Below, in pieces: positions 691 to 58,500 of a stretch of DNA of 64,000 nt. A program made the position numbers and the translations under genes. This stretch comes from Bolinopsis microptera (taxonomy: Eukaryota > Ctenophora > Tentaculata > Lobata > Bolinopsidae). A model generated the notes under the pieces. That model did not search any database, was not told the DNA's origin, and worked only from the letters and a program-made list of their open reading frames with translations. The number at the start of each line of letters is the position of its first letter. Positions within the stretch are counted from its first letter, which is position 1. Location: positions 7,290,169-7,354,168 of the forward strand of contig NC_087079.1 in NCBI RefSeq assembly GCF_026151205.1, read 5' to 3'.

Positions 691-1740
691 CCAGCATAAA
701 TAACTCTCTGTACTTTTACGAGAATTGAAGCCGTTTTACGTAATCTTTCTTCTTAAACTTTTTAACTACTTTTTATACTTTTCTCCGACTAATTGGTTAA
801 AAGTAAATACGAGTTAGTTTTGTGGAGTGGCCACAAGTAACAAATAAGTGACTATGGTAACTAGTAGTGTAACCATGGTAACAAGTAAGTGAACTACACG
901 AGTTCGCAACTGGTACGACAGAATAATAAATCTTAAACTTAAAGCAGCATTTGAACTAATTGATGAGTTGTTACTCACATGACACATAAAACACCTTCGT
1001 TAGACAAAGTAGGTTGTAAAGAAGAAACAAGAGGGAAATATCGCGTCAAGAGGCCAGGGAGGAGGAAATAGTTTAGTCGACTTAGTGCCTGTTAGATTTT
1101 GTTTACGATATGGTTACTGGTTGTTAACATTTCTCAATAGTCACTACTCAAGATAAAAAAGATAAAAACATTTCAGCTTCAACGATCACGTTGGTCCAGT
1201 AATAGGTTGATAGGAGCTTAGTGTTTATTATTTTATTTGGGTTGAGCATCAAATAAGTTATTTAACTTAATTATGTTCCCTAACGAATAGTAATGCTGAG
1301 AATTCATACGATTTGATTTGAAACTTTTACAAATAGTACATTATACAATACAGCAAAGAGAATTAAAAATATACGACATTATTATCATGAGGCATTTGTA
1401 GGGTAAAAGTTGTAGTCCATATTGTATAAATACTAAAAGCATGGTTAAGTGGTACAAGTTCTGGGGGTATATGTATTACAAGTAATAGTTCTACTCCCAG
1501 ACTCACTAACACCACCTCCATCTAAATACACAAAATGTATCTAAAACACGCAAATTTAGAATTATCAAAATAAATACATAATGTATCCATGACCTGACCC
1601 ATAATGCGCCAAAAATTGCGCGCGTAACATCACACAGCGCTTAGAAGCAAGATTACAGTCGGATATAAAGTTCGCGTAATCCAGTTAAGTATATTAACTG
1701 AGGACTGCACCAGGGTCAAATCATGGTGACAGAACGTAAA
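691..1740. other. AT-rich spacer, no gene recognised
   Basis: No open frame with family resemblance, RNA gene or clear terminal repeat was recognised. The stretch lies between the RNase H LINE fragment and the 3' end of the CR1-type LINE. Confidence 0.5.
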
Positions 1741-1856
1741 TGTTATTTAATATTATTTAATAGATTTATTTTTATATTATAGTTGTTATATTCAGTATCG
1801 TGACCGATCTATCAGTGGCGGGGGCCCACATATAAATATCATTTGCACTCATTAAC

Positions 1857-4800
1857 TTAGTCAGGGTCTGTCAATTTGTCCCAAAAGTGTTTTGCCAGGT
1901 TTGCCTTAAAAGTTCCGGCATCACTTATCTCTTTAAGGTCAGTTGGTAGGTCATTCCAGACACTGTGTGTTCTGAAGAAGAAGCTTCTCTTAAAGGAGTG
2001 AGCTTTTGCTTCCACAGTACACTTCAGGGAAAGGTGGTCGTGTCTGTTCTGTCGCCTCTGGTTGATATCAGGCATTTGAGATGTATCAACTTCATTATAT
2101 CTCGAGGGTTGCCTTATGTTTGAACGCAACCTACCCTGTTCACTGGTTGTTATCGGGGTTAAATAAGGTGGGAGCTTCAGAACAGATTGACCATTGTATA
2201 TCTGATGGAATAATAGTAAGTCTGTGTATTCAAACTTCAGCTCCATTGGCAACATGTCTAGCTCTCTTAATCGAGCCAAGTATTCTAAGTCATTATAGTG
2301 ATGATCCTGTTCGCCAAGGATCCACATAACTGCTCTGCGCTGAATGTTTTCAACTTTGTTATTCAAGACAACACTTGTTGGTCTCCAGACAACACTGCAA
2401 TTTTCGAAAAGGCTCCTAACCAGCGCTAGATAGAATGCCCGTTTTTGTTTACGGTCGTTAATAAACCGTAGAGTTCTTTTCATTAGACCTAGACGAGAAC
2501 TAGCTTTCGTACAAAGGTTGACTATGTTCTCCTCCCACTTAAGGTCTGTTCTAACAAAGACCCCAAGGTCTTTTTCACTCTGGACGAAGTCTAGTGCCGT
2601 TCCATCTAGGGTGTAGACAAAGAGCTGAAAGGGGAAAAAACTCAAAATTCCTTTTTCGCTCAATTTGCTTGATATAGAGAGTACCTTACATTTATTGGGG
2701 TGAAACTTCATTTTGTTTCTTACTGCCCAGCAATGCAGGGCATCTATATCTGCTTGTAGGATCTCATGGTCCCTCCAGCCCACAATTTTACGCCATATTT
2801 TGGTGTCATCAGCGTACAGGGCAATTTTTGTACCTTCACTTACGCATTCTGACATGTCATTAATAAAGAGTACAAAAAACAGAGGTCCTAAAATGGAGCC
2901 TTGGGGAACTCCTGATTGGACATTCTTTTGTTCTGATTGGGATCCCCCAATAATAACACACTGTTTGCGGTCTTTGAGATAGTTCATAATAAACTTCAAC
3001 AGTGTACCATCAATTTCAAATTCCGATTTTAATTTCTTTAGGATGACATCATGGTTAACTGAGTCAAAGGCCTTGGCAAAGTCAAAGTATACCACATCAG
3101 TTCTGATATTATCGTTAATAGACAGTGAAAGACAGTCTATATACCCGACCATTTGTGTAGTACAAGACCTCTGAGGAAGAAAACCATGCTGGTTGTCATG
3201 TATTTTATGCTGGCATTTTGCCAACAGTTCATCTCTCACTATTTTTTCAAAAATTTTCATTGTAAGGCTTGTGAGAGAGATTGGCCGATAATTTTCAACT
3301 AACGTTTTGGGGCCTTTCTTATGCACAGGTACTACGTTAGCAAATTTCCATTCAGATGGTATCTGACCTATATTATAAGAGATTTTAAAAAGGCTCGAGA
3401 GTGGGTATGCAATACTATCTCTACAGTTCTTTAAAATTTTGCCATGGATACCATCTGGACCAGCAGCTTTATTAACATTGACATCTTTTAGAATTTTTCG
3501 GATTCTGCTGGTACTGAACTCAATGTCGTTTACTGAGTCATTACTATAATCAATATCAACATCATAATTACTCGCTTCGGAAAACTGTGCAGCAAAATAT
3601 TCATTGAACATTTCAGCTTGGTCTAAGTGATTGTTTCTAAATCTGCCGTTATAGTTTACTGTTCCTGGTATGCGAGTAGATTTTGATGTCGATTTGACAT
3701 GTTTCCAGAATTTCTTTGATATAAGAGCTGGATCATCATCATCATTCAGATTTGATATCATTTTTTGGTCGACCAAATTTTGAAAATCTTTTCTACATTG
3801 TGAGAACTTTTCATAGTCCTCAGCTAGGCATGATCTTTTAGATTTGACTCGTAGTTTTTCTTTTTTGAGACACAGCTGATAAGTGTCAGAGTCAAACCAG
3901 GGTGGCTGATCCTTATCTGATATCGTAATAGTTGGGATTCGGTTCTGTATGTGATGGAACAGGATTTTCTTAAAACGGAACCATCCTGTTTCTGCATCAC
4001 AGTTAAGGTGATCATCCCATCTAACTGATTTCAGATCATTGTTCAGGCCGATCCAGTCTGCTTTTTTGTAATTTAAGATTTTTCGTTTGGTGACCTTCTT
4101 TCTAAACTTCATTTTAGCACTAAAAGTTATTCCAAAGTGATCTGAGGAGCATATCTCATTTTTCCCCAGGACCGCCAAATTTTCAACAACACTTATCATA
4201 TTACAGAAGAGAAGATCGAGGACCTTCCCTTTATCATGAGTGGGTTGGTTTATCATTTGTGTTAAGCCTAGGTCATTAAACAGATCTATAAAACGGCCAC
4301 CAAGAAGTGTGGGGGACACACCGTCTAACCAGTTAACTTCAGGTAGATTGAAGTCCCCAACTACAAAGTGGGCCTTAAACTTTCTCCGTCCTACCACATT
4401 TCTGAGGTGTTTCTCAATTTCATTAAAATTATTTTCACCAAGGGTGCCAACTCTATAGCAGGCAGTTATGCAGTAGCATGTGTTGTTTGATTTTAGGCTG
4501 ACTGAGATCATTTCAGCCCTAGAGCTGACATCAATCTTGTCATTTTCAATACTGATGCCAGTCTTGACTGCAATAAGGACTCCACCCCCCTTCCTTCGAA
4601 ACTTATTTGGGTTATCAGGATCCGGGGGGTGGGATCTTTTGGATCTATCCTTCCGATATATCTTGTAGATGCTATCAGGGAGGATCTCATTTTCCAGGTG
4701 CTCTTTTGAAAGCCAAGTCTCAGTCAGAACAATAACATCAGGCTTGTCTTCATAGATCTTAGATTGGAGCTCTAGTAGTTTACCAGCATCAAGCGGCATG

Positions 4801-5378
4801 TTTTTAGATGCTAGGCCACTAAAGGGGACAAGCCCTCTCAAATTTTGGTACATTACCTTTAGATGACTGAGGTTATTGTTATCAACTGGACCTGGGTTAA
4901 GTATGCTTGTATTGCAGATAACAAGCAAAACTAAGTTCAGAATGGTCGTCCAGATGGTGAACATGTTACTTAGGAACTGATGTCCACTACACTTAGCGGA
5001 GGAGTAACGTCTGGGACAACCATACTTCACTATCCATAGGGCTATTCCATTTTGTTTCTTTGAATAGATGATCATTAGGACTACAAGATTTGCACTGTTC
5101 ATAAGGCAGTCCCAGTCATTGGTCAGGTGTAGTCCGATCTTGTACGAGCGATGCATACGAAATGTTTGGTCTGAGTATTCACTTGCTGTTTCAATGGCCC
5201 CCGCCAATAACAGACAGATCATATACACATATACAACAATCACTACTCCATAAATCATCTTTAAAATAGCACTTTTCTCTATAGTGGTAATTGAATCTAT
5301 ATTTAATTTAGCATTGCATTTGACTTTGGGAGAGTATAGACCAATCACTGTTCTGTGTTGTAAAAACGTGACTCCCAT
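1857..5378 (-). CDS. LINE ORF2: APE endonuclease-reverse transcriptase
   Basis: A 1173-residue polyprotein that would nick target DNA and copy the element RNA into it. Residues 40-60 and 141-155 are hydrophobic, the second just before an NPGP motif (161-164) resembling the end of a 2A-like signal. The endonuclease spans about 173-416: YQNLRG (N179), LTETWLS (E220), GDFNLP (D342, N344) and SSDHFGI (D413, H414). The reverse transcriptase spans about 620-905: KAAGPDGI, the FDFAKAFD block (D766 region), SGVPQGSILGP and YADD (855-858). The C-terminal third has the LINE thumb and connection region and ends with a WNDLP block. All catalytic residues I can recognise are present. The true start is uncertain: the first Met may lie upstream of the natural initiation site. 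Confidence 0.92.
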   Translation of the reverse strand: MGVTFLQHRTVIGLYSPKVKCNAKLNIDSITTIEKSAILKMIYGVVIVVYVYMICLLLAGAIETASEYSDQTFRMHRSYKIGLHLTNDWDCLMNSANLVVLMIIYSKKQNGIALWIVKYGCPRRYSSAKCSGHQFLSNMFTIWTTILNLVLLVICNTSILNPGPVDNNNLSHLKVMYQNLRGLVPFSGLASKNMPLDAGKLLELQSKIYEDKPDVIVLTETWLSKEHLENEILPDSIYKIYRKDRSKRSHPPDPDNPNKFRRKGGGVLIAVKTGISIENDKIDVSSRAEMISVSLKSNNTCYCITACYRVGTLGENNFNEIEKHLRNVVGRRKFKAHFVVGDFNLPEVNWLDGVSPTLLGGRFIDLFNDLGLTQMINQPTHDKGKVLDLLFCNMISVVENLAVLGKNEICSSDHFGITFSAKMKFRKKVTKRKILNYKKADWIGLNNDLKSVRWDDHLNCDAETGWFRFKKILFHHIQNRIPTITISDKDQPPWFDSDTYQLCLKKEKLRVKSKRSCLAEDYEKFSQCRKDFQNLVDQKMISNLNDDDDPALISKKFWKHVKSTSKSTRIPGTVNYNGRFRNNHLDQAEMFNEYFAAQFSEASNYDVDIDYSNDSVNDIEFSTSRIRKILKDVNVNKAAGPDGIHGKILKNCRDSIAYPLSSLFKISYNIGQIPSEWKFANVVPVHKKGPKTLVENYRPISLTSLTMKIFEKIVRDELLAKCQHKIHDNQHGFLPQRSCTTQMVGYIDCLSLSINDNIRTDVVYFDFAKAFDSVNHDVILKKLKSEFEIDGTLLKFIMNYLKDRKQCVIIGGSQSEQKNVQSGVPQGSILGPLFFVLFINDMSECVSEGTKIALYADDTKIWRKIVGWRDHEILQADIDALHCWAVRNKMKFHPNKCKVLSISSKLSEKGILSFFPFQLFVYTLDGTALDFVQSEKDLGVFVRTDLKWEENIVNLCTKASSRLGLMKRTLRFINDRKQKRAFYLALVRSLFENCSVVWRPTSVVLNNKVENIQRRAVMWILGEQDHHYNDLEYLARLRELDMLPMELKFEYTDLLLFHQIYNGQSVLKLPPYLTPITTSEQGRLRSNIRQPSRYNEVDTSQMPDINQRRQNRHDHLSLKCTVEAKAHSFKRSFFFRTHSVWNDLPTDLKEISDAGTFKANLAKHFWDKLTDPD

Positions 5379-5581
5379 AAATTAGTTTAAAACTCAAAGT
5401 TAGGTGGAGACTGGAAAATATGTACTGATTATACTCTGTTAAAGAAGCAAGAAGTTAATGAATTAAAATATTGTCAATTAATAAATATGGGAACAAATTA
5501 TGAGAGCATTGTTAAGCTATAATGTTCGTTAAAAATGAAAGAGTTCTCTGAATTCTATAAGTTGAACATGTTACAAGGTGA

Positions 5582-7189
5582 CTACCTAGGTTGGTTAGCA
5601 ACGCCAATAAGAACTTTGGCTAACACACTGGTTCCAACAGGATTAAGATGGATACCATCCCTGTTAAACATATTAAAATCTAAAAGCCACATAGTAGGTG
5701 TCTTCTTTAGGAAAAAAGAGAAAAAGTCAACAAATCTTATACTTTCTTTCTTACACATCTCACTTAATAGATCATTAAACTTATGCATATTTCTAATATG
5801 TGTAAGATAACTTGCCTTCCTAGGGACAAGTGAAAAGAAATTAATCTTAGCTGCAGGAAATACCTGTTTTGTTAGGATTATAAGGTCATTAATGTCTTCA
5901 AATATGCGTTTTATGTCAGAGTCTACAATCAAATTTTCAACATCATTTCCCCCGACTTGAAGGAACACAGTGGAAACATTAGATGTATTAAATTGCTTGG
6001 CACACTTTTCAACTTCGTTATAAATGTCACAAGCGTGTGCTCCAGACCGGGAGATAACTTTAAAAATTTTTCCACGCCTGGAAAGTGTTTCAGTTTTCAA
6101 GCTCTTGAGGAGGGAGCTGCCAAACACAAAGGTGTCAGGGTATGTGGCATCTTTGGAGGTGCTGGTTGCAGGGAAGGTATTCGGTTCTGCAGAAGGTTGT
6201 GGGGGAGGAGGGGAGGAGGATGGGGGAGGAGAATGGATAGGAGGGGCTTCTTTAGGTGGGAGCAGACGTCGGAAGGTGACACTGTAACGGACTCCCCTTT
6301 CTTTCTGTACATCTTTGTCTCCAGCAAGTATTTCATGGTAAAAAGATTGCTGGAAACCAGGCAACATCGTGAATATGCTCCCGGGAGTAAGAGTAAGGTA
6401 CTTGACGGATTTCTTTTTGTCAAGGGAAATGTTCATTTTCCGAGTTGCACCAATCGAGAGTGTTGATATTGGTGCACCTGGATCGAGGCCTGATTCATCA
6501 TCCTTGTGGGGAGGAAGGCAACACACATATGAGCTGTACTTGTTAACTAACATAGAGTTATACTCTGTTCCTAGTGTTAAGTTAACAGTCTTCAGCAGTT
6601 TATCCATGATGGTGTTGGGTTGGATAGAGACTGGTGAGAGGGCAGCAGATCTTCGATTGTATGCGTATCGTTGGCTGCCGTACAGGAAGGTATCTGGGCT
6701 TAAGTTTGTTCCAGACCTGCTGTAATTGATCTTCTTGACGTGTTCAAGGACTTCCTCAACCAGAGGCTCACTAAGGGGGTCATGTCGAAGATTATAGTGA
6801 AGGAGCAGCGGAGATGGAGAAGGTGGGGAAGAGGATGATGGACTCGATGATTCCTGTATTTTGGGTACTGGAGAGGGTGCAGAATCAAGTAGCGTGTTGG
6901 TATATTGGAGAAGGTTCTCCAATGTATTCTGCACTTTTCTAAGTTCTTCGTTAGCGAGATTTCCCAGTTGGGGAACTATAAGGTCTTTCAGTTTATCAAG
7001 TTCCATTGTAGAAGGAGAACATCTCCAGGGGTCGACAGTCAGCACAAGCACAGCAGCCCAAGGGGTCAGACGGTACACACAGCGGCATGATGTGCCTATC
7101 TGAAACGAGAATAAACGGCAGAAAAGGAATGGTAATGAGATATTGAAAAGTTTAGTTTTAAATAAATCATTGCAATTAAGAAGACTCAC
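5582..7189 (-). CDS. LINE ORF1: AlkB-like 2OG-Fe(II) dioxygenase fused to SGNH/GDSL-type esterase
   Basis: 535 residues; Met62 (codon at 7004-7006) is a likelier start because what follows is charged and helical. Order: short coiled coil (62-105), Ser/Pro linker, AlkB-like domain (about 130-310), Pro/Ser linker (312-345), SGNH domain (350-530). The AlkB-like part has YGSQRYAYN (170-178), N211, the iron triad HKD (H228, D230) and H285, and the 2-oxoglutarate signature RYSVTFR (R301, R307). The SGNH part has a GSS block in place of GDS (S359 as candidate nucleophile), GGND (413-416) and DGIHLN (D511, H514). Esterase-bearing ORF1 proteins are known in CR1 elements; the AlkB domain is the surprise. 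Expected role: an RNA-binding ORF1 protein with oxidative demethylase and hydrolase activities. Function is inferred. Confidence 0.88.
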   Translation of the reverse strand: MSLLNCNDLFKTKLFNISLPFLFCRLFSFQIGTSCRCVYRLTPWAAVLVLTVDPWRCSPSTMELDKLKDLIVPQLGNLANEELRKVQNTLENLLQYTNTLLDSAPSPVPKIQESSSPSSSSPPSPSPLLLHYNLRHDPLSEPLVEEVLEHVKKINYSRSGTNLSPDTFLYGSQRYAYNRRSAALSPVSIQPNTIMDKLLKTVNLTLGTEYNSMLVNKYSSYVCCLPPHKDDESGLDPGAPISTLSIGATRKMNISLDKKKSVKYLTLTPGSIFTMLPGFQQSFYHEILAGDKDVQKERGVRYSVTFRRLLPPKEAPPIHSPPPSSSPPPPQPSAEPNTFPATSTSKDATYPDTFVFGSSLLKSLKTETLSRRGKIFKVISRSGAHACDIYNEVEKCAKQFNTSNVSTVFLQVGGNDVENLIVDSDIKRIFEDINDLIILTKQVFPAAKINFFSLVPRKASYLTHIRNMHKFNDLLSEMCKKESIRFVDFFSFFLKKTPTMWLLDFNMFNRDGIHLNPVGTSVLAKVLIGVANQPR

Positions 7190-7474
7190 GATGTAATTGA
7201 GTCATTTGGAAAACAATTTCAATAATAACAACATCCGAAAGACTACCATTAGGGCTCAATACAGACAGACACACTCTTACCTAGTCCCAAAGGTTTGGGC
7301 CGACACTTCGCAAGAAGTGCCGGATGCATTCCATCCAACTCCCAGACCCACTGAGCAGGTACATCATGTCTCGCCCCAGAGATGAGAGGTTATCAGTACA
7401 TACTCCCCATACGGGGTGTTACTTAGCACATCCCCTAAACTCAAATTATTTGTTATATAGTAGTGTTGAAAGTA

Positions 7475-7519
7475 TTAATCTGGTTTTCGTTTCCTACTTT
7501 AGGAACGAAAACCAGATTA
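7475..7519. repeat. Short hairpin
   Basis: The arms TAATCTGGTTTTCGTTTCCT and AGGAACGAAAACCAGATTA are complementary apart from one extra T, with a loop of about 6 bases. It is the strongest short palindrome upstream of the LINE; function unknown. Confidence 0.6.
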
Positions 7520-22954: not shown

Positions 22955-25900
22955 GTTTGTCAACGCAACACAGCAATACAATTTTATTTAATGTTATGTA
23001 TATAATTATATTTGATATATAAATATATACATATGTATTTAATCAGTAGTCAATACTCAATAACTACACAGGGTTATTGTAATGAAAATGAAATGATGGC
23101 GTCTGGACTTGAGACCATAATATATAATTATATTTAATGTAATAATATAGAACATATAACATAGTATGATATGTATATATTATGTGTATATTGTCAAAGT
23201 ATCAATTGTACTTAATTATTAATATCAAAGTAACGGCACAAGAGTCATGGATCGGGAAAAATTTAAGACAGTCTCAAAAAGTGTCTACATTATTTGAGTG
23301 CAATGAAAATCTTGTTTTTGTACATTATCATTACAATATTATGATAAAGATACATTTAAAAGGATTCAAAATGAAGCGATTGCTAGTTTTTGTATCGATT
23401 GTTCATTTAGTCCCTTATTTGAAAGATAACATTAACACTAATAATTAATGTAATGGTCGTTATTCTAAGAACGTAACTCCAGGTGCTAATAATTCAATTC
23501 TCCCGTATTAAGAAAGATTACTAGGGATATTATTGAAGACATGCTAACCTGCTTGCTGACTTTATCGGGCACAAAATAGATAGCAACCTCATAAACCACT
23601 TGAAGAAACATCGCGATAAAATAAGTTCAGAAAACCAAATCTGCCAATTCTCGAAGATTTTATAATTGATACATAGGAATACGAACCTTATTGTCTTTTT
23701 TGATAATATCAGAATTCGACTTATTTTATATGATCTGAGATAATCAATAATTATAACATTTTAACAGTAACACAATAAATGTCATTCATACACATAATAT
23801 GTGTTAATTTGTCCACAGTATTAAATATGCTAGTATTATTCACGAAACTGAAAATAGTGAAAATATGTCACAATACTGTCTTGACATCATTGAATATTTT
23901 GAATCATGCAACTAAAATAGCATAATTATTGGCACGGATACCAAATATTGTGCATTCAAAATGTTCTGTACAAGAGTAAAATACAAGAAAATTACGTGCA
24001 ATTTTCAAGTATTTGAACTAAACTACTAAACATGAACTATAAAAGAAACTAAATAAATATTGATAACTGATACTCTGATATTACGTAATCAAGCTGAATT
24101 GTACATCTTGCTAATAGCTAATATACTAATTCTCTTTTAAAATCGAACTTGTTATCTTTTAGTAACAACGTAATCAGATATGTCATACTTAACACAGAGC
24201 TGTTTAAACACCCAGTTAGTTACATCTGGTAACCACCACTCCCACCCCCACCGTCCTGCTACTTGAACAATGTTATCAGGAGCTGTGTTACCTGAGCATA
24301 TACTATACCTGTACATGTCACTACTAGACACGACATCGTGTAGATGTAGTCCTGTACCCTCATAGTCTTTACTGTTAGTAGATAGTTCTTCTATACCACT
24401 ATCCTCGTCTAGTTTACTGTATCTTAATATAAAACCACATTTACCAGCTTCTGTACAGTGTACACTGCACTCCACTGTGCTGGGATGTCGGAATGTAAAG
24501 AGAGACTTGAATACAGTACCTACTGGTAAACTCGTATCTCCTGTCATGGCATGTTTCACAGTACTGACTAATCTTTGTCCTGTTATTGGTGACACGTTGA
24601 TTTCCTTATTACATTTAATGAGTATGTTCTCATGGTGGGTTGAGAGATTATCATTGTTCGTTATCTCATTCAAAATTGCGATAAGTTCAACCTTTTGTAA
24701 TTTTGGAGAATAGTTTAAAGCATTAATTACTATTCCCAAAAATCCTTTCGAAACTTTCTGCATTTTTTTCTCCTTACAACATTCCTCTAGTGTTGTCAGG
24801 AATACTCGTGTCTCCTCTGTACTGGGTGTTTTGTAGTAGTAAACCCAAAGCAGCAGTTCAACAACTACAAACACAGACGTCACCTTGTTACCCAGAACTG
24901 TGTCTGTGATATCTGTTATCTTTTTACAACTGATCACTAAGTCTTTATATTTCTTCCCATCAATCACCTCAGTAGTTCTCAGCCTTCTTTCTTCACTACG
25001 GGAACTGACTAATGAAATTGTTTCTGTTGAGAGACGGAACATTAACTTCAAATCATCTACCGATATGTCTGGTAGGGCTAGCATTTTTTCACAGATTTCA
25101 AGATAAAGTTCCTTGTTTTGTTCAAAACTCAGGGCTAGATTCATCTGCTGGAAGAGATACTTCAAATTCTCGTCCAGTTTCACCTTTCCTTCCAAGTTCA
25201 CCAGAATAGTACGGAGGAACGGCTCAGTATTGCTCCCTCCGAGAACTATCATATTGTCTATTTGAACGGTGTCCTGTTCATCTAAACCCGTCATATATTC
25301 CAACACAAAAGACGAGTTGTCTTGATGCGTTAATTCTGACAATAAAACGTTCATCAAAGTTTTATTATCCCATTTCCTGAGAGTGTAAATACATTCTTCA
25401 AACACAAACTGTTTCTCTTCATCCGTCCTTGCACATTCCACCTTCTTCTTTAACCACTGCTTGCACTCCTCCTTCATCCAATTTATTACAAATACTTCCG
25501 CAAGTTTATTGAGTTCCATGAAGTTTCCGTTATGTACATTGCCCAGCTCCCTATCATCCAACAGAGTGATAAACAACGTTACATTTTCCGCCAAGAAATC
25601 ATCAAATTCAAGTTCCACTTGATGCATCTCCTCTATTAGATAGCGAAACGTTTCGCTATCAGCAACAAGTAACTGCTTCGAAACATTTAGGGGATCTTCA
25701 TCCTTCAGCATTAGGAGAATTGTTTCTTCCATAACTAGAAGTGGGAGTAATATACGTTTCAATAATTTGTATAATGTATATTACGTCTTGATAGTACAAA
25801 AGTAGGGAGCGACTATTTGGTTATATTAAGAAAATCGGACAATATAATTAGGCAGCAATTATCAAAAACTGGCACAGATCGCACCTCACGTTCGGCGACC

Positions 25901-28900
25901 GAAAATGAAAAAGTAAGTTAAATTTAAGATCCAATGCTACAACAAAGCACAGAGAAAGGAACAACACAGAATGATGATCTCACACAGTCGAGAGTAGCAG
26001 AGTCACGCGATGTTTGTAATATAACACTCAAAGAGCCCAGCATTATGTGATCATGTGCTACACTCACAATTAGATTTCAGATTAGGGGTCGTTCACATAT
26101 TACGTAATCAGCCGAGGGGGGGTTCTAAATGCTTACGGTTGATTACGGGGGGGGGGGGGGGGGGGGGGGTTTGGTCGTTGATTACGTAATCAAAATTTTC
26201 TTTTTACCCTCTAAAATAATAACAATTTGACAATATTTTAATTCAAACTCCACTCAATTTTACTTTGGTAGTGATAAAATTTAGAAATTGATCGAATATC
26301 CGGCTGTAATATTTAGTAGTTTAGAAGGTGCTTGGCCGGATATCATAACAATGACGGGGGGGTTGGGGGGAGAGGGTTGTGTTGGGTCTTGAATAACTTG
26401 ATTACGGTTGATTACGGAGGGGAGGAGGGTAAAAATTGCTAAAATATTGATTACGTTAAATGTACCATCATTATGGTAAATGTACCATCGTGATAAATTT
26501 ACCATCATGATAAACTGACGAATCCTCTTTTCAGGACCTGATAAATCGATCCCGGCGGCCATATTTGCCAAAGCTAAAGGAGTAGCCATGATAAGCTACT
26601 GTGGGTTGGGCTGCTTTATCTCTGCTCGTGGTGGATCAGGGATAGTGGTTGCTAAGACACCCTCTGGTGGTAAGTTTGGTGAGCAACTTATTTAGCTGAT
26701 CTGATGCTGAATCACAGATTTCAAAATCATACTTTGATTGGAAGCATCGTTTTAACTTTGATCTTCAGGATATCACAAGTTTGCCATCCTAATATTTGTC
26801 CAAGTACCTTATAATTTGTATGTTCCTCATAATTCTGGTTATTTAAATTTCAACTAACTGAAATGAATATATTAACATTGTTGATATTCCAGGTTGGTCC
26901 GCCCCCTCCGCAGTGGGTATTGTAGGAATTAGTGGTGGGTTCGACTTCGGCATTGAGGTGAGAGTGGGGAGGGGAACCTCATTTGTTGAAACGTGTCAGT
27001 AATTTTGAACGAAATTAGTTTCGTGAATGTCCCGAACTGGGATATAGGCGATTTTGTTCATTTTTGGCAACAAATAATCCAAAGTTAAATAGATATTGAA
27101 CTGTTATGTGTAGTTTAGGCTTACCTTCATAATATAAAGATAAAACTCTGTCTCATCCAAAAATGGGGAGTATATCCCCTGTAATCCCCAGGGTCAAATC
27201 TCCAAAATATATTTTATTAAACGTTATTAATGATATACCCAAATATGTCTCTTCTCTTATTTCTTGTCTTATCTCCTGTAACTGTCTTATCTCCTGTCTT
27301 ATCTACTCCATTGTAGTATTTTACCAAAAATCGATTCCCAATCAGTTGCAGTAACCATCCAAATGTTAAATCCTCCTCCTCAGATGACAGCGATTATAAT
27401 GATGCTCATGACATCTAACGCCGTCAAAGCGTTCATGAAAGGAAAAAATGTCATGCTTGGTGGAAACATTTCAGTTGCAGTGGGGCCTCTAGGCAGGTAA
27501 ATTGTATTATGTGCCTCTAGGCAGGTAAATTATATTATGTGCCTCTAGGCAGGTTAATTATATTATGTGTAATTTTCTATCGGAAACCCTTTGTTGAATG
27601 TGTTTCTAGTACGATATAGCTACATGATATTTATGGCATCAAAATATGTGATTTGCTGTGACACATGTCTCACTCTTACCTTATTATTCAAGTTGAAAAC
27701 AATACTGTGTATAATTGTATCAAATTTTCAGTGACACATAAAGTAAAATTAGATGTACAATATGTGGACTTGTATACGATTAAAAATGAACAGTTGTAAT
27801 TAACATTTTCAGTTCCGGTCAGAATCGGCCACTCCCTCCCAGCAAATTTCAAACTTGAAATCCTGTTTATAACGGTTATTACGGTTATTACGGTTATTAC
27901 GGTTATTACGGTTATTACGGTTATTACGGTTATTACGGTTATTGCGGTTATTACGGTTATTACGGTTATTACGGCTCAAATCAGACAATCTTGTTCCCGG
28001 TCCCTGCCCACCGAAAATTTCCATTACGGTCGTTGCTGAGTTTACGAAAGTCAAACAACGTTTCCATTGACTTTAGACTTTACATAGTAGGTGGTGGAGA
28101 CCCCTGCCCTTTTTTGGACATGTGCCAAGTTTCCACAAATATCGGCCGTATTAGTAACTACCATACGATAATCATGATCAATCAGCATGATAACCATAAT
28201 AATTCAGAGATAATTCATAATTAATTCAGTGAATTAATCACGTGACAATTCATAATTAACACATAATTAACACAGGGATTTAGAAGTAGACATGACGGTG
28301 AGGGCTCCAGCGGCGATGTACACCTACGCTAAGGCTAAAGGTCTGTACCTGGGTATCAACCTGGGTGGAACCCTCGTGTTGGAGAGACGGAAAGCGAACG
28401 AGAAGTAGGTTTAGTCTGTAACAATACCTAGTAACCATGGTAACACATACCTAGTAACCATGGTAACACATAACTAACTACGCTAAGGCTAAAGGTCTGT
28501 ACCTAGGTATCAACCTGGGTGGAACCCTCGTGTTGGAGAGACGGAAAGCGAACGAGAAGTAGGTTTAGTCTGTAACAATACCTAGTAACCATGGTAACAC
28601 ATACCTAGTAACCATGGTAACACATAACTAACTACGCTAAGGCTAAAGGTCTGTACCTAGGTATCAACCTGGGTGGAACCCTCGTGTTGGAGAGACGGAA
28701 AGCGAACGAGAAGTAGGTTTAGTCTGTAACAATACCTAGTAACCATGGTAACACATACCTAGTAACCATGGTAACACATAACTAACTACGCTAAGGCTAA
28801 AGGTCTGTACCTAGGTATCAACCTGGGTGGAACCCTCGTGTTACCATGACAACCCTCGTGTTGGAGAGACGGAAAGCGAACGAGAAGTAGGTTTAGTCTG

Positions 28901-42300: not shown

Positions 42301-44617
42301 CACAGTGACCACCAGCGGGAAAATGAAAAAGATTGAGTCTTCAAATATTTTAAATCTCCACTCCGAGTCTATGTCTTGGGAATCTGACTGTACCCTGTAC
42401 ATGCACCTACCGTCAGCTGGCACCCACCTGTACAAACATATTTAGTACCTAAATTACATATTTGTTTGTCAGATATCCATATCCAAACGAAGAGATTCGG
42501 TTAAGAATAAGCCAGGTAATAAGATCGTGTGGATTGGACGAATGTAGGTTACATGCTCAGACATAAATAAATCTGTAGCTCTTAGTCTTAGGTTAATTCA
42601 ATCTGGGCTAAAATCAAAATTCTTGTTCAACAATTATCACAAGTTTATTACTAACACTGCTACGTTAACTATACTTTGTAGTTGGATTGCCCATTGCTTC
42701 GCCATGTCAGTAGTGTAACCAGTATGAAGGAGTATGGCATGTAAAGCAAAAGAGAAAGAGAAAGTATATTTCTTACACGACTGTAGTATAACCAATATGA
42801 AGGAGTATGACATGTAAAGCAAAAGAGAAAGAGAAAGTGTATTTCTTACACGACTGTAGTATAACCAATATGAAGGAGTATGGCAAGTAAAGCAAAAGAG
42901 AAAGAGAAAGTGTATTTCTTACACGACTGTAGTATAACCAATATGAAGGAGTATTGCATGTAAAGCAAAAGAGAAAGAGAATGTATATTTCTTACACGAC
43001 AGTAGTATAACCAATATGAAGGAGTATGGCATGTAAAGCAAAAGAGAAAGAGAAAGTATATTTCTTACACGACAGTAGTGTAACCAATATGAAGGAGTAT
43101 GACATGTAAAGCAAAAGAGAAAGAGAATGTATATTTCTTACACGACAGTAGTATAACCAATATGAAGGAGTATGGCATGTAAAGCAAAAGAGAAAGAGAA
43201 AGTATATTTCTTACACGACAGTAGTATAACCAATATGAAGGAGTATGGCAAGTAAAGCAAAAGAGAAAGAGAAAGTGTATTTCTTACAGGACAGTAGTGT
43301 AACCAATATGAAGGAGTATGGCATGTAAAGCAAAAGAGAAAGAGAAAGTTTATTTCTTACACGACAGTAGTGTAACCAATATGAAGGAGTATTGCATGTA
43401 AAGCAAGATATGAGATGATAGATCCCCAAGTGATGTAAGTTATCCTTCGTGCACGTGTCTTCGTTATCATCACTTTGTACCTGCAAGTTACAATGGGTTC
43501 ATGTCTTATCAGTAAACATTACGAGGTGATGTTAGTATGGTTAGTTGGTGGTTAATTAGACGATTTTGATACTAAGAGTATCACTTATCAGAGTAGGGAA
43601 TTCAAAAACTCAATTTGCAAAATAAGCTAATAGATAATAATAATAATAATTTACGAAATAAGCTAATAACACAATTCATTAGATCAGTATCACATGAATA
43701 GTTATAACTATTCATGTAATTATATAAATATACTCATTAATTGCAAATTAAAATAAAACTTACCAGAATGGAAAGCTGATAGCAATGAACCTATCGAGTG
43801 AGAGAATAGCGATAGCACAAGCGTTCTGATAAGCAAATGCCCATGCTATGTAAGGTGACCAGAAGCAGAATGTAGAGACGGAGTCAGACGCAGTTGTTTC
43901 ATCAGGACAGGCTGATCCGCCGTAGAAGAGGCTGAGGTTGTTATTGTTATTAAATTCCCCATTATTTAGACACCATTAGATCTGATTATTAATTTCCATA
44001 GGATTAATCTAAAGTAGGTAACGTATTTGTGCACCTGTACAGTTGCAGCTGCTTCATATTTATGATTGCATTCTTATTTCCTAATCTACGCTAAATATTC
44101 AACAAACGGAGAGAAACATAATATGAAATTAACCATGCTGGCAGTGGAAGTGCCACTTCTAATCTGTACTAATTACTAACTTCTTAAACTTCTAGGCACT
44201 TACCTAGGGTGCACCATTCCTGGACCTCTGAACGTGACTCCAACAATTGCACTGCACAAGTCGGATACCTGAATTAAACTAGTAGTTGATGGCAACGTCA
44301 ATATATTCGGCTACATCTTTAGAGAAATACTATTAGTATTGAGTATCGTCGCTTAATTGAAATTCTGGTGATTAAGAATACTTGATCCAAATACAAACCA
44401 CAACATTGATGATAGCCAAGTACTGAGGAGTAAGAAGTCTCCTTGCTTTCCAGTACACGATCAGAATACCCAGGTTGAGGAATAGGGCTACACATGACAG
44501 CACTGTTATAGCTACACCAGAGTTGAACAGCACTCTGGTCAGAGTCTGGCAGTACTGGTCGGAGGGCTTCTCTTGAACTGCCAACATATGCATTGTTGGA
44601 CCTTGCTATAGGACCTT
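39128..44617 (-). CDS. Rhodopsin-class (class A) G protein-coupled receptor, complete
   Basis: Eight exons in phase give 414 residues: 44399-44617 (ATG at 44593; an in-frame TAG lies upstream), 44204-44268, 43764-43931, 43361-43480, 42274-42427, 41843-41993, 39676-39842, 39128-39352. All seven membrane segments are visible. N40 in LFLNLGILIVY is the TM1 Asn, D68 in VVSDLCSAIVG the TM2 Asp, C109 opens TM3 and pairs with C191 before TM5, DRF (133-135) stands for DRY, W161 marks TM4, P220 TM5, CVP (264-266) TM6, and NPIIF (314-318) TM7. The C-tail is basic, then Ser- and Pro-rich. The receptor couples an extracellular ligand to G proteins at the plasma membrane; the ligand cannot be told. The least certain join is the exon 7 acceptor (GTTTGAGAG), which is weak but restores frame. 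Confidence 0.9.
39531..39648. repeat. 45-bp-arm hairpin in the last GPCR intron
   Basis: ATTCACATTTCTGATTGTTT...GACAGAT (39531-39575) pairs with 39604-39648 with one mismatch; the loop is 28 bases. It may be a tiny foldback element. Confidence 0.9.
39676..39842 (-). CDS. GPCR exon 7, TM7 and helix 8
   Basis: Encodes SAIISVMIVSYIFFYVSPIV, NPIIF and a basic helix-8 region. Donor AAAAGG|GTGAGA, phase 0. The acceptor (GTTTGAGAG) is weak but gives the right phase. Confidence 0.87.
39872..39913. repeat. (GT)n(CTGT)n microsatellite
   Basis: Eleven or so GT units followed by four CTGT units, immediately upstream (on the minus strand) of GPCR exon 7. Confidence 0.95.
40090..41177. repeat. 367-bp direct repeat, near identical (40090-40457 and 40811-41177)
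   Basis: Starts CCCAGAAACCCTGACCGGAT and ends CGGTAACTTTTCCTGGGT in both copies; the only clear difference is a 4-base deletion (ACTAGCTAGTA to ACTCTAGTA). Recent duplication inside GPCR intron 6. Confidence 0.95.
41685..41710 (+). mobile_element. Helitron-like 3' terminus
   Basis: CCCGGCC-GTA-GGCCGGG hairpin (41685-41701), then TTACA and CTAG followed by T. A GC-rich hairpin a few bases before CTRR-T is the Helitron end signature. The 5' end is not certain; the body may reach back past the 367-bp duplication toward 39.9 kb. No Rep/helicase frame, so non-autonomous. Confidence 0.6.
41843..41993 (-). CDS. GPCR exon 6, intracellular loop 3 and TM6
   Basis: Acceptor TCCACTTCAG, donor CAATG|GTTTAT, phase 1. 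Encodes a basic loop (VIKSRHQKEEL) and CLTFCIVVSSCVPWILYFIS. Confidence 0.87.
42274..42427 (-). CDS. GPCR exon 5, extracellular loop 2 and TM5
   Basis: Acceptor TTTGTACAG, donor GCTAAG|GTATGT, phase 0. Encodes WVPADGRCMYRV and IFFIFPLVVTVVCYLFILAK. Confidence 0.93.
42704..43406 (-). repeat. 73-bp x 10 tandem copies of the TM4 exon end and donor
   Basis: Units start at 42704, 42777, 42850, 42923, 42996, 43069, 43142, 43215, 43288 and 43361; the last is the exon itself. Each contains about 45 bp of exon 4 and 28 bp of intron, with the donor CGT|GTAAGA kept in nearly every copy. Confidence 0.95.
43361..43480 (-). CDS. GPCR exon 4, TM4
   Basis: Acceptor AACTTGCAG, donor GTCGT|GTAAGA. Encodes YKVMITKTRARRITYITWGS then IISYLALHAILLHIGYTT. 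The frame joins exons 3 and 5 exactly, restoring the TM4 segment. Confidence 0.85.
43640..43700. repeat. Small ATA/ATAAGCTAATA repeat
   Basis: AATAAGCTAATA occurs twice around an (ATA)n run. Confidence 0.6.
43764..43931 (-). CDS. GPCR exon 3, extracellular loop 1 and TM3
   Basis: Acceptor AACCTCAG, donor TTCTG|GTAAGT. Encodes STFCFWSPYIAWAFAYQNAC and AIAILSLDRFIAISFPF. Confidence 0.93.
44204..44268 (-). CDS. GPCR exon 2, TM2
   Basis: Acceptor TTTAATTCAG, donor CCTAG|GTAAGT, phase 2. Encodes VSDLCSAIVGVTFRGPGM with the TM2 Asp. Confidence 0.88.
44399..44617 (-). CDS. GPCR exon 1 (start codon 44593), TM1 and start of TM2
   Basis: Acceptor ACTTACAG, donor GTTGTG|GTTTGT, phase 0; 65 codons. 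The 24 bases before ATG contain an in-frame TAG, which fixes the start. A 5' UTR exon should lie upstream. Its acceptor is copied four more times upstream. Confidence 0.88.
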
Positions 44618-52599: not shown

Positions 52600-55500
52600 C
52601 TGGGATTTATAAATTTTGTTACATTCAAAAAACAAAAGTCATTCCTGCGATTACGGTAACCCCTTCAATATCTATTTTTCGTGGCTCTGATTCACCTGAA
52701 ATTATTACGCCTCGCATGGAACCCCAGTTAAAGCTCATATGTTATACATCAATTGCTGGTCCTAAAAGTGATATAAAAAGTGATAATAATAGGGCTGATA
52801 ATGTAACGTAATTTAAAGGGAAGCCAATCTTGGTGTGCTACGTATTACATTATTCACGGTGTTGAGAACTACAATAATACAAATATAAACACGCGTGCTG
52901 CGCCCACGTCAGGGTTACGAAATGCTTGGTGACCACCGCGCGCTACAGATATTCATCTGATAGATGGTGACCGAAAATAAGGCCCATTCTGCCATCAAGG
53001 TGGATTTTAGTCGTCAAGAACGTTTTAAGACAAATCAGCACATTCACAGGACTAGACAAAGAACCAAGGTCAGCTATCGTGTCTGGATAGGACGGGAGAG
53101 CCCGCCCTATTGGCATACGTCACCGCCTGACTGGATATAAGACTGTTTTGACGACGAAGGAAAGTATGTCATGATATAGTCGCACATTTACCTAACATTT
53201 CCTGGTACTAAAGATAGACCAGTACACAGAACCTGTAAAAACGCCCATAAGACCGACCGCTCAAAACTTTAGGACAGCAAAATTCAAAAAAGTGGCCACT
53301 GCACCTGGCTAAGTGTTCTAAGAGTGTACTTAGTTCTGGGACTTGGATTCGAAGAGGAAGAAATTTGGTGCATTTGTCATTTGGTGAGATACGATAGTCA
53401 ATAAATCATATCATACGAATAACTTATACACACATGCAATCGGCTTTAATGGTGCTCCGATATTAAATCAATATGAGAATGTAATTAAGTTTGGTAGAAC
53501 TTTGTAGAGCTAGCTGATGATAAAAATGATGAGATTAAGGGCGAAATCGTCTACTTTTGAAACCTAAGACGGGCACCCTCTTCCTATCTTAATGAGCTTA
53601 CATTTTAAATTACACATATTATGAGCAGTAGGTGAGTTTGGCACCTTACCAGATGTTACTAATCCGTAAACAGTTATGGAAGTAACACTTTCAAAGAATA
53701 TGTTTAATCAACGGCCAGGTAGCGTAGTTGGTTAATCATCGGATTTGTAATCGTGAGATTGCGAGTTCGAAACCCACTGCCTGCCTAGTCGTGGGGTGAG
53801 TGTCGTCGGCATTCAGCTAAAGATCCTGAGTGGTCTATGCAGCCCCCCGGTCTACTCAGCCGAATATTCGAGAAATCGTGTGTGAGGGTTAAATGAGAAG
53901 CTGTCCATTGCAGCGAAGTCTCGGGCGAAGAAAGTATGGTACACACTACCTTAACCGTCACTGGCCTAATTAAATCCTTCGGCTTCCTGTAATTGGCTAG
54001 TTACACTTGTGTAACAATTTGGCTGTTGGAATACTCCGAAGTAAAATAAGTGTGAGATAAAAAAAAAATATAAAATATATTCTGCTCAAAACATGTCATC
54101 AACGACGATCGGTATAAAACACGTCAAACTTCAAATCAAATATCGCAAATAGAAATCATTGTGATGCTACATTTATCAAATATTGTTGGGAAGAAAAGTT
54201 TGTTCAATGCTTAAAAGTGCCCAAACAAATTATTAATATTACTGGAGTGTTTTTAAAACACTTACATTTGCAACTCCTTCTTTGACCTGAAGAAATTGTT
54301 TAAACTAAATAAATATGTCATACAAATATTCAATAAACATGAAATGCAAACATACGAAGAATTTCAAGGGAATAGTTAGACCACATACAAACCGCTTCAC
54401 TTAACAAGAGGAATTCAGTTAGTAAAATTATCAAAACACTATTAAACTTTCAACTGTTAGCTTACTTGTTATAACACTACTAAACTTTCAACTATCAGCT
54501 TATTTGTTACTAGTTTACTTACTTGAGCATCTGCTACTAATTTCTTAGCTTTTTCAAGGTCCTTAGCTTTATTAGCCGCTAAAAGAGCTTCTTTAAGTTT
54601 CTCCGAGTGATCCTTTAACATCTGCATGTTTATCTTACTCTCATCTTCGTACTTCTTTATAGTTTCCAGCCTGGTAATAATGTGAAACTAAGGAACGGTA
54701 TGTGAAACATACAGATCAATAACAGATTGAAAGAAGAATAATCACAGCTTTATTAATCATGATTAGATTAAACCAATGTGGGTTATAATTTTAAAACGTG
54801 TGCAGTGCACAAAGTGCATCAATTTCAATATCCGTGTTCACACTAAATTCACACAGTTGATTTGTAGTGTAATCACTACTATTGAATAGCAGTTACTTCA
54901 AGGTATGAGGCAGAGGAATCATGTTAAAGTGTTAAGTAATATACATGTTTCTAATTGGGCTACATTATCAAGGTTTTAGAGTGTGCACTGCAATATGGCA
55001 GCCCCTTACGTCTATGAACTGTATTAGTTATTACAACAAATTATTACCTTAATTAATTTCTTAAAAAATTGTACAACACCGGTATCAGAATTGTTCAAAT
55101 GTTATTACTTTCATGTTTTCAAATATAGTAAACAATAACTTTAAAACTTGTTAACCATGCCTTTAGCTGTCTACATAATTTTTTTAATCAATAAACTTTC
55201 AAAATGTTTACAAAAACATCATTTTATTTCAAAGAAAATTCGCCGAATAACCTTTCAAGCTTTCATGCCTTGACAAGTGACCGAACTATCTCCCTCTAGA
55301 TAACGAACTATCTCCCTCTCCCTCTCCCTCTCCCTCTCCCTCTCCCTCTCCCTCTCCCTCTCCCTCTCCCTCTCCCTCTCCCTCTCCCTCTCCCTCTCCC
55401 TCTCCCTCTCCTCTCCCTCTCCCTCTCCCTCTCCCTCTCCCTCTCCCTCTCCCTCTCCCTCTCCCTCTCCCTCTCCCTCTCCCTCTCCCTCTCCCTCTCC

Positions 55501-58500
55501 CTCTCCCTCTCCCTCTCCCTCTCCCTCTCCCTCTCCCTCTCCCTCTCCCTCTCCCTCTCCCTCTCCCTCTCCCTCTCCCTCTCCCTCTCCCTCTCCCTCT
55601 CCCTCTCCCTCTCCCTCTCCCTCTCCCTCTCCCTCTCCCTCTCCCTCTCCCTCTCCCTCTCCCTCTCCCTCTCCCTCTCCCTCTCCCTCTCCCTCTCCCT
55701 CTCCCTCTCCCTCTCCCTCTCCCTCTCCCTCTCCCTCTCCCTCTCCCTCTCCCTCTCCCTCTCCCTCTCCCTCTCCCTCTACAATTGCGAACTGTAATTT
55801 AAATGGTGAAACCTTAGTACTATTCTCATGTTTCTTAGATTACATCATTATCGTACCCTTTGTTACTCAACCTCTTGTTTAATATAATATATATATAATA
55901 TATATATAGGTATATTATAAACAAGAGGTATTATGTATAACACACTACTTTAATAATTTAATAAGTGGTGTTGCCAACCCCCATTCAATTATGTATAGCC
56001 TAATATTAGGTATGCACAATGCACATAGTTATATAAGTATGTACAATGCACATAGTTATATAGGTATGTACATAGTTATACAAATTACTGTACATTTGAG
56101 GACCCATTAACCTAACTTTAACAAGTTTAGAAGAGAGTTAAAATAAGAGAGTTAAGTAACTTTGCGTAATACAGTTAATACAGTACTGTACTACACAGTT
56201 AAGTAAAGTGCGCAAATATTTTCTTCTTCCTTTAATGAGACCACCAATTATTGCACACTATTTCCGTCAGGATAAGAAGCTATAATACATCATAAGCAAT
56301 ACCAAATAGTTATGATATATACAAAGTTACAGAGTATCACACAGTGTATCACTGATCACATAGAGTATCACACAGTGTATCACATTGAGTGTCACACAGT
56401 GTATCACACAGAGTGTCACACAGTGTATCACACACAGAGTGTCACACAGAGTATCACACAGTGTATCACACAGAGTGTCACACAGAGTGTCACACAGAGT
56501 GTCACACAGAGTGTCACACAGAGTGTCACACAGAGTGTCACACAGAGTGTCACAAAGAGTGTCACACAGAGTGTCACGTACAGAGTGTCACGTACAGAGT
56601 GTCACACAGAGTGTCACAAAGAGTGTCACACAGAGTGTCACGTACAGAGTGTCACACAGAGTGTCACACAGAGTGTCACGTACAGAGTGTCACACAGAGT
56701 GTCACACAGAGTGTCACAAAGAGTGTCACACAGAGTGTCACGTACAGAGTGTCACACAGAGTATCACACAGAGTGTCACACAGAGTATCACACAGAGTAT
56801 CACACAGTGTATCACACAGAGTGTCACACAGAGTGTCACACAGAGTGTCACACAGAGTATCACACAGAGTGTCACACAGAGTATCACACAGAGTGTCACA
56901 CAGAGTGTCACACAGAGTGTCACACAGAGTGTCACACAGAGTGTCAACAGAGTGTCACACAGAGTGTCACACCTTTATTGTATTGGAACAATTGATGGGG
57001 CTGCATTGTTGAGCTGCACTAGTATTAGATCAACATTCCATTTGTGCACAATAGCTCAATGTACCTCAATACTAGATAACTACTCTATATATTAGAACTT
57101 CATATAACTACATGCTCCAGAAGTAAGCAATGTACCTAGATTCATCAAGCAGTCTATTTTTAGAATACGAGAACATTTTTCATTGACACGTAGATGATAT
57201 CTTCTATGAAACAATTAGCGCGTCACGCAGTACGTGAAGGTCCATTGAGTGGTTAGAGTGGTTAGATATACTAGCAGGAACCCGTCAAACCTTTAAGACT
57301 GGTGTCAAGGCTCTTTGGTGGCCGGATCAGTTTCCTACCCTAAAGTCTCCCAGTAAAAATAATTATTACCTATTTAATTCGCGTTTTTGACACCACTTGG
57401 GGGTTCAAATTTTGGGTACTAAAATTCTTATTCCTTGGCCGATTTTCGATTTTTTCATGCTGATTTGAAGGCCATTAAAGCATTTGAATCAGTTAAAAAA
57501 GTTTCAGTTTTATATCTTGTACGGTTTTTGCGGAAACCCGTGTTAAAGTTGATGCCGTGGTGTCAGTAAAATGGTGCGGATAAATAAATATGTATATATC
57601 GTCTCGCTTTATATATAGTAAGATTGGTATATTATAATATATGTATGATTATGTTATTTTGTTGTTATGTTGTGTAAGTTTGTGTAGTAGTGGCAAGAAG
57701 GTATCGTATACATTTTAATTTGTTCTCTTGATTATTTATTAATGATTTTATGTACTGTAGGGTCGGCACCAATGTAATTATGGTTTTACCACCGTGTTTT
57801 GGTTCAGCCGAAATAAATTTTACTTAGATGTTTACATAATGTTTCTCACTCCAGCTGCAGTCTGGTAGTGTTGAGTCTCATGAATATTTTTCTAGCTCTC
57901 TTTTTCCATGTTTTTGCCTCACAGGAGATATTGTGGTCTTTTCTATTGAATATAACTGTAATACATTGATGTAAAGTTTATTTGAATTTTGAAATAAAAT
58001 TATAACTAGAAACTGCGTCTAACATTGCTGCATCCTATATTTTTAGCTTGATCACCCCTACTCGTCTTGTCCATATCTAAAACATTTCGGGCTCATGGAA
58101 TTGGAGAATTGGAAGCAGGAAGATCTTTTAATGTAACGGCCTCTCATAACATAGATATTTGTATCAACAAAAGATAAGTTTTTATAATTTGTGTTTTAAC
58201 TTAGAAGCCTACTTACTACTTAATGTGACATCAGACATGTTGGAGATTAGAATGTAGTTATTGTAGACTATGTACCACTATGTAACATTATGTAACATTA
58301 TGTAACATTATGTGAAAATAACTGCTGTTAACAAATCATAATTACCTCCTCTGTTTTTCAATTTCAGCTTGAGCTTTTATATCTTCTTTTTCTCTTTCAT
58401 CCATATCTCTCTCGTAATTTCCCAACTGCAGAGGAGGAAAATTAACAAATGATTAAGAAACTCCTAATAAACTTACTGAATAAAGCCTCCTGAATAAGGC

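Follow-up and report, generated by a model that had tools for sequence, protein, structure and literature searches.

The stretch of 64,000 nucleotides analyzed here (the window) contains a LINE whose first open reading frame (ORF1) appears to fuse an AlkB-like dioxygenase to an SGNH esterase-like domain. The locus raises three questions: whether the fusion is real, how widely it is shared among the mobile elements of this genome, and what an AlkB enzyme would do in a retrotransposon. The features of ORF1 are listed below in window positions.

5582..7189, minus strand: ORF1 open frame, 535 codons (7189 down to 5585, stop at 5582)
6269..6673, minus strand: AlkB (2OG-Fe(II) oxygenase) domain, residues 173-307, by PF13532 and by ALKBH2 in phmmer
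6494..6508, minus strand: HKDDE (228-232), iron ligands 1 and 2 together with the acidic E that is invariant at H+4
6335..6337, minus strand: H285, iron ligand 3
6269..6289, minus strand: RYSVTFR (301-307), the 2OG-binding RxxxxxR
5597..6130, minus strand: SGNH hydrolase-like domain, approximately residues 354-531, with S359, GGND (413-416), and DGIHLN (511-516), by Pfam and alignment

An earlier note, made from the sequence letters, had placed the fusion at 5582..7189. These coordinates are right and the frame is a single intact ORF, located on the minus strand. The first ATG of the frame is codon 62 (Met62, position 7006), which is probably the start of a 474-amino-acid protein. The AlkB residues named in that note (HKD at 228-230, H285, and RYSVTFR at 301-307) are all where it put them, and they give the domain a complete set of iron and 2-oxoglutarate ligands (HxD...H and RxxxxxR). 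The Pfam profile 2OG-FeII_Oxy_2 (PF13532) matches residues 173-307 with an E-value of 3e-13 and a score of 50.8 bits (cut-off 31.2), so the profile match on which the AlkB reading had been made to depend is well above its cut-off. A phmmer search of the window protein against solved structures has ALKBH2 as its best match (1.5e-7), with ALKBH3 at 0.0017. The ORF1-encoded chain 4c1b, which we take to be the ZfL2-1 esterase, matches at 0.32 only. AlphaFold with single-sequence input gives ORF1 a mean pLDDT of 36.5, which is uninformative for the double-stranded beta-helix fold.

The SGNH half is less clear-cut than had been claimed. S359, GGND, and DGIHLN are in place, but the Pfam profiles fall around or under their cut-offs: PF13472 matches at 4.2e-6, under the cut-off, and PF00657 at 5.6e-5 with 23.8 bits, barely above the cut-off of 23.6. 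The usual SGNH nucleophile consensus is GDS. The window block containing S359 reads FGSS, with GSS in that place.

The LINE that carries ORF1 has the following further features.

1310..7482, minus strand: whole LINE copy, about 6.2 kb, ends taken from comparison between copies
1857..5378, minus strand: ORF2, 1173 amino acids, with N-terminal hydrophobic segments, an APE endonuclease, and a reverse transcriptase (RT)
4887..4901, minus strand: LNPGP (2A-like) in ORF2, immediately ahead of the endonuclease domain
1310..1320, minus strand: (AAATC)n 3' tail, about two units in the window copy, the unit number differing between loci

ORF1 does adjoin an intact CR1-type ORF2, as had been proposed; the ORF2 frame is unbroken and matches PF00078 (RT) at 4.8e-29 and PF14529 (endonuclease) at 1e-7. 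The arrangement is that of a CR1-like LINE, with ORF1 followed by an ORF2 with APE endonuclease and RT, and with a short-repeat 3' tail. The label CR1-like is an assumption based on resemblance, the RT having been placed only among elements of the window's genome. The (AAATC)n tail, of variable length, is shared by the window copy and the six others compared, and in a seventh (L061) the 3' flank diverges ahead of the tail. By copy comparison, the 5' boundary is near those of two other copies (L003 and L005). No target-site duplication of the window LINE was recognized on inspection by eye.

Two observations concern the parts of the element outside ORF1. The N-terminus of ORF2 (window 4887-5258, minus strand) has hydrophobic segments, then LNPGP, then the endonuclease; LNPGP is present in all four CR1-like families examined in the window's genome. 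An inverted repeat (TAATCTGGTTTTCGTT...AACGAAAACCAGATTA, window 7476-7519) is located at the 5' junction of the LINE and extends into its first bases, and the 90 upstream bases of each of four other LINE copies show no such repeat.

Further copies of the family were sought in the window's own genome (264.65 Mb, 232 contigs). This genome is probably that of a ctenophore: one of its glutamate-receptor genes (L146) has ML032222a iGluR as closest solved relative (1.2e-61), ML names being those of the ctenophore Mnemiopsis leidyi, and a second such gene (L145) has kainate receptors as its top matches. The ORF1 search returned at least 86 matches (81 of 1870 candidates scored). Among the matches listed, the entire 535-residue ORF1 is open at four places, the window included, with 99-100% identity. 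Four other copies have DNA identities to the window ORF1 of 99.5, 99.4, 99.0, and 98.7%, the last covering 1507 of 1608 bases with a frame broken near residue 500. With ORF1 copies 98.7-99.5% identical to it, the window family is recently active, as judged from sequence. An unbroken ORF2 is found in the window and on contigs 10, 4, and 1, and in two of these copies (window and contig 10) ORF1 is unbroken as well. The contig 4 ORF1 match begins at residue 198, in agreement with 5' truncation. The contig 1 copy, with a full ORF2 and no ORF1-like frame within 2.5 kb upstream, may likewise be truncated. Some partial ORF2 matches elsewhere (L063, for example) are frame breaks.

These copies bear directly on whether the fusion could be an artefact, in which separate ORFs or nested insertions are read as a single frame by chance or through misassembly. 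Such frames do occur in this genome. A 1003-amino-acid frame joining endonuclease, AlkB, and SGNH (L050:2959-5967) was considered as a new fusion and rejected as a one-off nested insertion, because its junction is spanned once among 40 scored matches and each half occurs many times. The window ORF1, by contrast, has its full frame open at three further loci (99% identity), and the AlkB-SGNH arrangement is repeated in diverged families. Assembly error and chance fusion, the former having been raised in the earlier note, are thereby ruled out for the window frame, and the probability left to an artefact of any kind is negligible.

The extent of the arrangement was determined with the AlkB profile. 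PF13532 has at least 151 matches in the window's genome (587 first-look candidates, 150 scored). Three of the loci (L027, L028, and L029) are taken for host genes because they are ALKBH2/3-like over the whole fetched frame. The search for the same fusion in further LINEs, which the earlier note had suggested, was productive: many diverged families of this genome have AlkB with SGNH. AlkB is present in 11 complete LINE ORF1 types (window, L017, L019, L020, L022, and L047-L052) and in four partial ones (L038, L042, L043, and L044). PF13532 is above the cut-off in eight of the 11 (window, L017, and L047-L052). The other three (L019, L020, and L022) have no PF13532 match at 0.01, and their AlkB is identified by alignment and ligands only; L022 matches PF03171 at 0.0046, under the cut-off. 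An SGNH match at an E-value of 0.001 or better is found in nine of the 11 types, and is above the curated cut-off in only four (window, L019, L020, and L022). L048 and L052 have no SGNH match at 0.05 and were judged by eye. Among the 85 RT matches listed, in frames of at least 870 amino acids, at least 21 have an AlkB match within 7.5 kb on the 5' side and on the same strand.

The AlkB alignment contains 14 rows, 11 from LINEs and three from Helitrons, which are described below. The four partial types were omitted, as were a near-copy (L012), decayed copies (L008 and L023), and broken copies (L053 and L054). The invariant columns include both iron histidines, the aspartate, the acidic residue at H+4, and both arginines of RxxxxxR (14 of 14 rows), and the ligands are kept even where identity to the window falls to 25%. 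This retention argues against a domain that is only a nucleic-acid-binding scaffold, with catalysis lost or unimportant, as does the low dN/dS of AlkB. The scaffold reading draws on the SGNH partner, which looks partly non-catalytic (in several families the alignment shows SSS, GSS, or GTS where GDS is usual) and suggests that ORF1 domains can lose catalysis. A scaffold role for AlkB is considered very unlikely.

Values of dN/dS were obtained by the Nei-Gojobori method with our own script and are approximate, several dS values being near or above 1. Thirteen pairs of LINE or Helitron copies were compared over the AlkB domain: 12 of them have dN/dS of 0.06-0.30, and synonymous sites are saturated in the 13th. 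An older decayed relative of the window LINE, at 63% identity, has dN/dS of 0.33 (AlkB) and 0.29 (SGNH) against the window. Fisher tests of synonymous versus non-synonymous changes give p of 1e-16 for a Helitron pair and 3e-18 for a LINE pair. AlkB is thus under purifying selection, with dN/dS of 0.06-0.33 estimated from these comparisons. The neighboring parts of the AlkB-bearing ORFs are likewise under purifying selection, so the result speaks for a functional protein and not for AlkB in particular.

The RTs of the AlkB-bearing LINEs were sorted in a tree made without L050, for which no RT was seen. Group 1 contains the window, L019, L020, and L022; group 2 contains L017, L047, L049, and L051; and group 3 contains L048 and the window's second LINE, each with support of 100/100. 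L052 forms a long branch. By this tree, the AlkB-bearing ORF1s span at least three RT groups, and by its domain content the AlkB-bearing ORF1 would be a new LINE ORF1 type. A tree of the SGNH domains was too weak to decide relationships.

In the window's second LINE (P0004, 61.6-64 kb), ORF1 ends in an SGNH-like part (PF13472 at 0.024) and lacks AlkB. AlkB function would therefore be dispensable for some elements. This LINE is located at window 61595-64000 and also at L144 1584-3476, and its RT sister L048 does carry AlkB.

The ORF1 of a LINE can also be replaced, as comparison of two subfamilies suggests. L047 and L049 have ORF2 proteins that are 98.3% identical and ORF1 proteins that are only 54.6% identical. 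Their DNA identity rises from about 65% to 98.4% at L047 position 2769, the start of the ORF2 frame. The pattern indicates that ORF1s can be exchanged between subfamilies, which would be a route for the spread of AlkB.

The remainder of the window contains several repeats and one further frame. A 12-base unit (50 copies, 56356-56972) and a 14-base unit (44 copies, 58461-59075) form arrays that overlap open frames of 194-255 amino acids. Other tandem arrays are TCTCCC (78 copies, 55311-55780), a 73-base unit (9.6 copies, 42708-43406), and a 154-base unit (3.4 copies, 28324-28842). A 536-amino-acid open frame at 24152-25762 (minus strand) has a weak BTB match (0.1) and is possibly a host gene exon.

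AlkB is also carried by Helitrons, a class of rolling-circle DNA elements, on other contigs of the same genome, at the following places.

L009, 2383-9501: AlkB Helitron
L010, 2148-9998: AlkB Helitron
L012, 3-9899: AlkB Helitron
L014, 303-7679: AlkB Helitron

These elements have single frames of up to 3388 amino acids containing SGNH, AlkB, DUF6570, and Helitron_like_N (Pfam on L009, L010, and L012). The AlkB domains match PF13532 at 5e-21 to 2e-17, and SGNH is above the PF13472 cut-off in L010 only. A PIF1 helicase is present in L010 and L012, where the fetched piece extends far enough. Six of the 41 Helitron_like_N matches lie in the same open frame as an AlkB match, some of the 41 being pieces of one place. 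In two other cases (near 816 kb on contig 12 and near 4.306 Mb on contig 10), AlkB lies about 4 kb upstream of Helitron_like_N in another frame. Left ends are shared and flanks differ among L009, L016, and L025, and between L010 and L013, as expected of mobile copies. Between L009 and L010, identity is 76% in AlkB, 40% in SGNH, and 57% in Rep, as if AlkB had been exchanged later.

An AlkB tree of 37 rows was constructed, in which the bacterial rows come from 10 of 80 loci and ALKBH3 itself is absent. Two of its Helitron rows (L015 and L016), without a Rep match, were assigned by DNA similarity to L009. The AlkBs of the transposable elements (TEs), with the exception of L048, form one clade against the host-type and bacterial AlkBs (100/95). 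L048 groups with the TE clade in this tree (84/83) and with the host-type AlkBs in an earlier tree (99/96), and its AlkB may be a second uptake. The eight Helitron rows form a single branch within the LINE rows. A LINE-only AlkB clade with the Helitrons excluded is rejected by the AU test (p=0.0025), a result weakened by the group having been picked after the first tree was seen. Because the Helitron AlkBs branch inside the LINE AlkBs and the LINE-only clade is rejected, AlkB most likely moved between the two classes. The direction is read most simply from the branching as LINE to Helitron.

The window AlkB is sister to the Helitron AlkBs in both trees (96/82 with 37 rows, 97/88 in the earlier tree). 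This sisterhood was dropped as a claim, a grouping of the window AlkB with the CR1-like LINE AlkBs being also allowed (AU p of 0.152 and 0.123). Since this alternative placement is not rejected, the claim is limited to the position of the Helitron AlkBs inside those of the LINEs. A tblastn search returned no viral relatives of the Helitron AlkB (eight pattern matches, none confirmed), and no viral pattern match for the host-type AlkB.

The type of enzyme was assessed with a profile of the 14 TE AlkBs searched against solved proteins. ALKBH3 matches at 3.8e-33, ALKBH2 at 1e-24, and E. coli AlkB at 6e-9. Weaker matches are ALKBH8 (1.7e-6), a DNA N6-methyladenine demethylase (2e-4), ALKBH6 (0.002), and ALKBH7 (0.009), and the weakest are ALKBH5 (0.08) and ALKBH1 (0.18). 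The acidic H+4 residue of ALKBH2 and ALKBH3 (HSDDE, HRDDE) is kept in 14 of 14 TE AlkBs. By profile score, the TE AlkBs are nearer ALKBH2/3 than other ALKBH subfamilies. The specificity of ALKBH2 and ALKBH3 is for m1A and m3C, and ALKBH3 acts on RNA and single-stranded DNA. The ALKBH3 affinity favors repair-type m1A/m3C removal over m6A erasure, though subfamily affinity does not fix the substrate.

The domain might instead erase a regulatory mark (m6A in the element's RNA or N6-methyladenine in DNA), through which the element would evade host surveillance as proposed for an orchid Gypsy element. The orchid AlkB demethylates m6A in vitro (PMC9289625). Seven MT-A70 methyltransferase matches in the host genome leave room for mark erasure here, and the TE profile does match the DNA N6-methyladenine demethylase, though more weakly (2e-4). 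In the orchid, however, the domain falls in with ALKBH5 (PMC9289625), whereas the TE AlkBs match ALKBH3 far better and ALKBH5 only at 0.08, and they keep the acidic H+4 residue of ALKBH2/3. Mark erasure is considered unlikely.

ALKBH3-type enzymes work on tRNA and mRNA, and ORF1 proteins are components of ribonucleoprotein particles (RNPs). The target could accordingly be host tRNA, mRNA, or protein, or innate sensing, instead of the element, and the sequence gives no sign of a preference for action in cis. The LINEs and Helitrons that have this domain would share mainly a single-stranded intermediate, which speaks for the element as the target. Action on host molecules is considered quite unlikely.

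Repair in cis is the favored reading for the window ORF1, because the profile is ALKBH3-like, lesions of the m1A/m3C type stop polymerases, and a single-stranded intermediate that is copied is common to both classes. That the window AlkB is an m1A/m3C-type dealkylase repairing the element's own single-stranded intermediate is judged moderately probable. On this reading, the ORF1 protein joins an SGNH-like domain to an Fe(II)/2OG dioxygenase of ALKBH3 type that looks fit for catalysis, and it would function as part of the RNP. The AlkB part would take Watson-Crick-face methyl lesions (m1A, m3C, and similar) off the element's own single-stranded nucleic acid. With the lesions gone, target-primed reverse transcription could read through the LINE RNA template, and the single-stranded DNA of Helitrons would likewise stay readable. 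For the SGNH part, the probable role is in RNP assembly or in contact with membranes or lipids, by analogy with the proposal for the zebrafish ZfL2-1 ORF1 esterase.

A broader proposal is put forward tentatively, at slightly less than an even chance. An ALKBH3-type AlkB would be a tradable self-repair module that entered LINE ORF1s in one animal lineage and, through inheritance and the exchange of ORF1s, came to occupy at least three RT groups. It would then have passed from LINEs to Helitrons, which are DNA transposons of an unrelated class, and in each it would dealkylate the single-stranded intermediate that has to be copied (RNA in LINEs, rolling-circle DNA in Helitrons).

If the proposal is true, the elements represent a new type of LINE ORF1, marked by a repair enzyme of the AlkB kind, and AlkB is common to RNA-copied and DNA-copied element classes. 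A single enzyme domain would also have passed between retrotransposons and Helitrons. The AlkB-bearing elements make it testable whether template damage limits transposition, and they suggest that mobile elements are under real selection from alkylation or methylation of their single-stranded intermediates. The same argument has been made for plant RNA viruses with AlkB domains.

A literature search over titles and abstract openings, with subscription papers and Repbase reports mostly outside it, showed no AlkB in a LINE ORF1 or Helitron among the papers listed. The closest cellular enzymes are human ALKBH3 and ALKBH2. ALKBH3 is the best solved match of the TE profile, and the HxDDE and RxxxTFR motifs are common to the human and TE proteins. 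ALKBH3 is a cellular stand-alone enzyme, whereas the TE AlkBs are domains of approximately 150 residues in multidomain proteins and, with the exception of L048, form their own clade.

The closest LINEs are those with a Type IV (esterase) ORF1, such as ZfL2-1, which are likewise CR1-like with an SGNH/esterase ORF1 and an endonuclease-RT ORF2 (PMC4120745, PMC3905857). Type IV is defined by an esterase alone or with a zinc finger or leucine zipper and by the lack of another enzyme (PMC4120745), and the window ORF1 falls outside this definition because it contains AlkB. The main text of that survey of 448 elements has no AlkB type of ORF1, and the words AlkB and oxygenase are absent from it (PMC4120745). 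The survey saw the esterase ORF1 only in vertebrate CR1 and L2 groups (PMC4120745); transposon esterases have been aligned from chordates, cnidarians, and sponges (PMC3905857).

The Ty3/Gypsy element of the orchid Phalaenopsis is likewise a TE with an acquired domain of the AlkB superfamily, its ligands intact (PMC9289625). There the domain is a separate ORF of an LTR element and an ALKBH5-type m6A eraser (PMC9289625). The AlkB described here is ALKBH3-type, is fused to SGNH in a LINE ORF1, and is also present in Helitrons. The texim genes of fish Helitrons combine SGNH with a Helitron and are related to the CR1 SGNH (PMC4021074). There, texim is a captured gene, and the abstract makes no mention of AlkB (PMC4021074), whereas in the Helitrons of this genome SGNH, AlkB, Rep, and helicase are joined in one frame.
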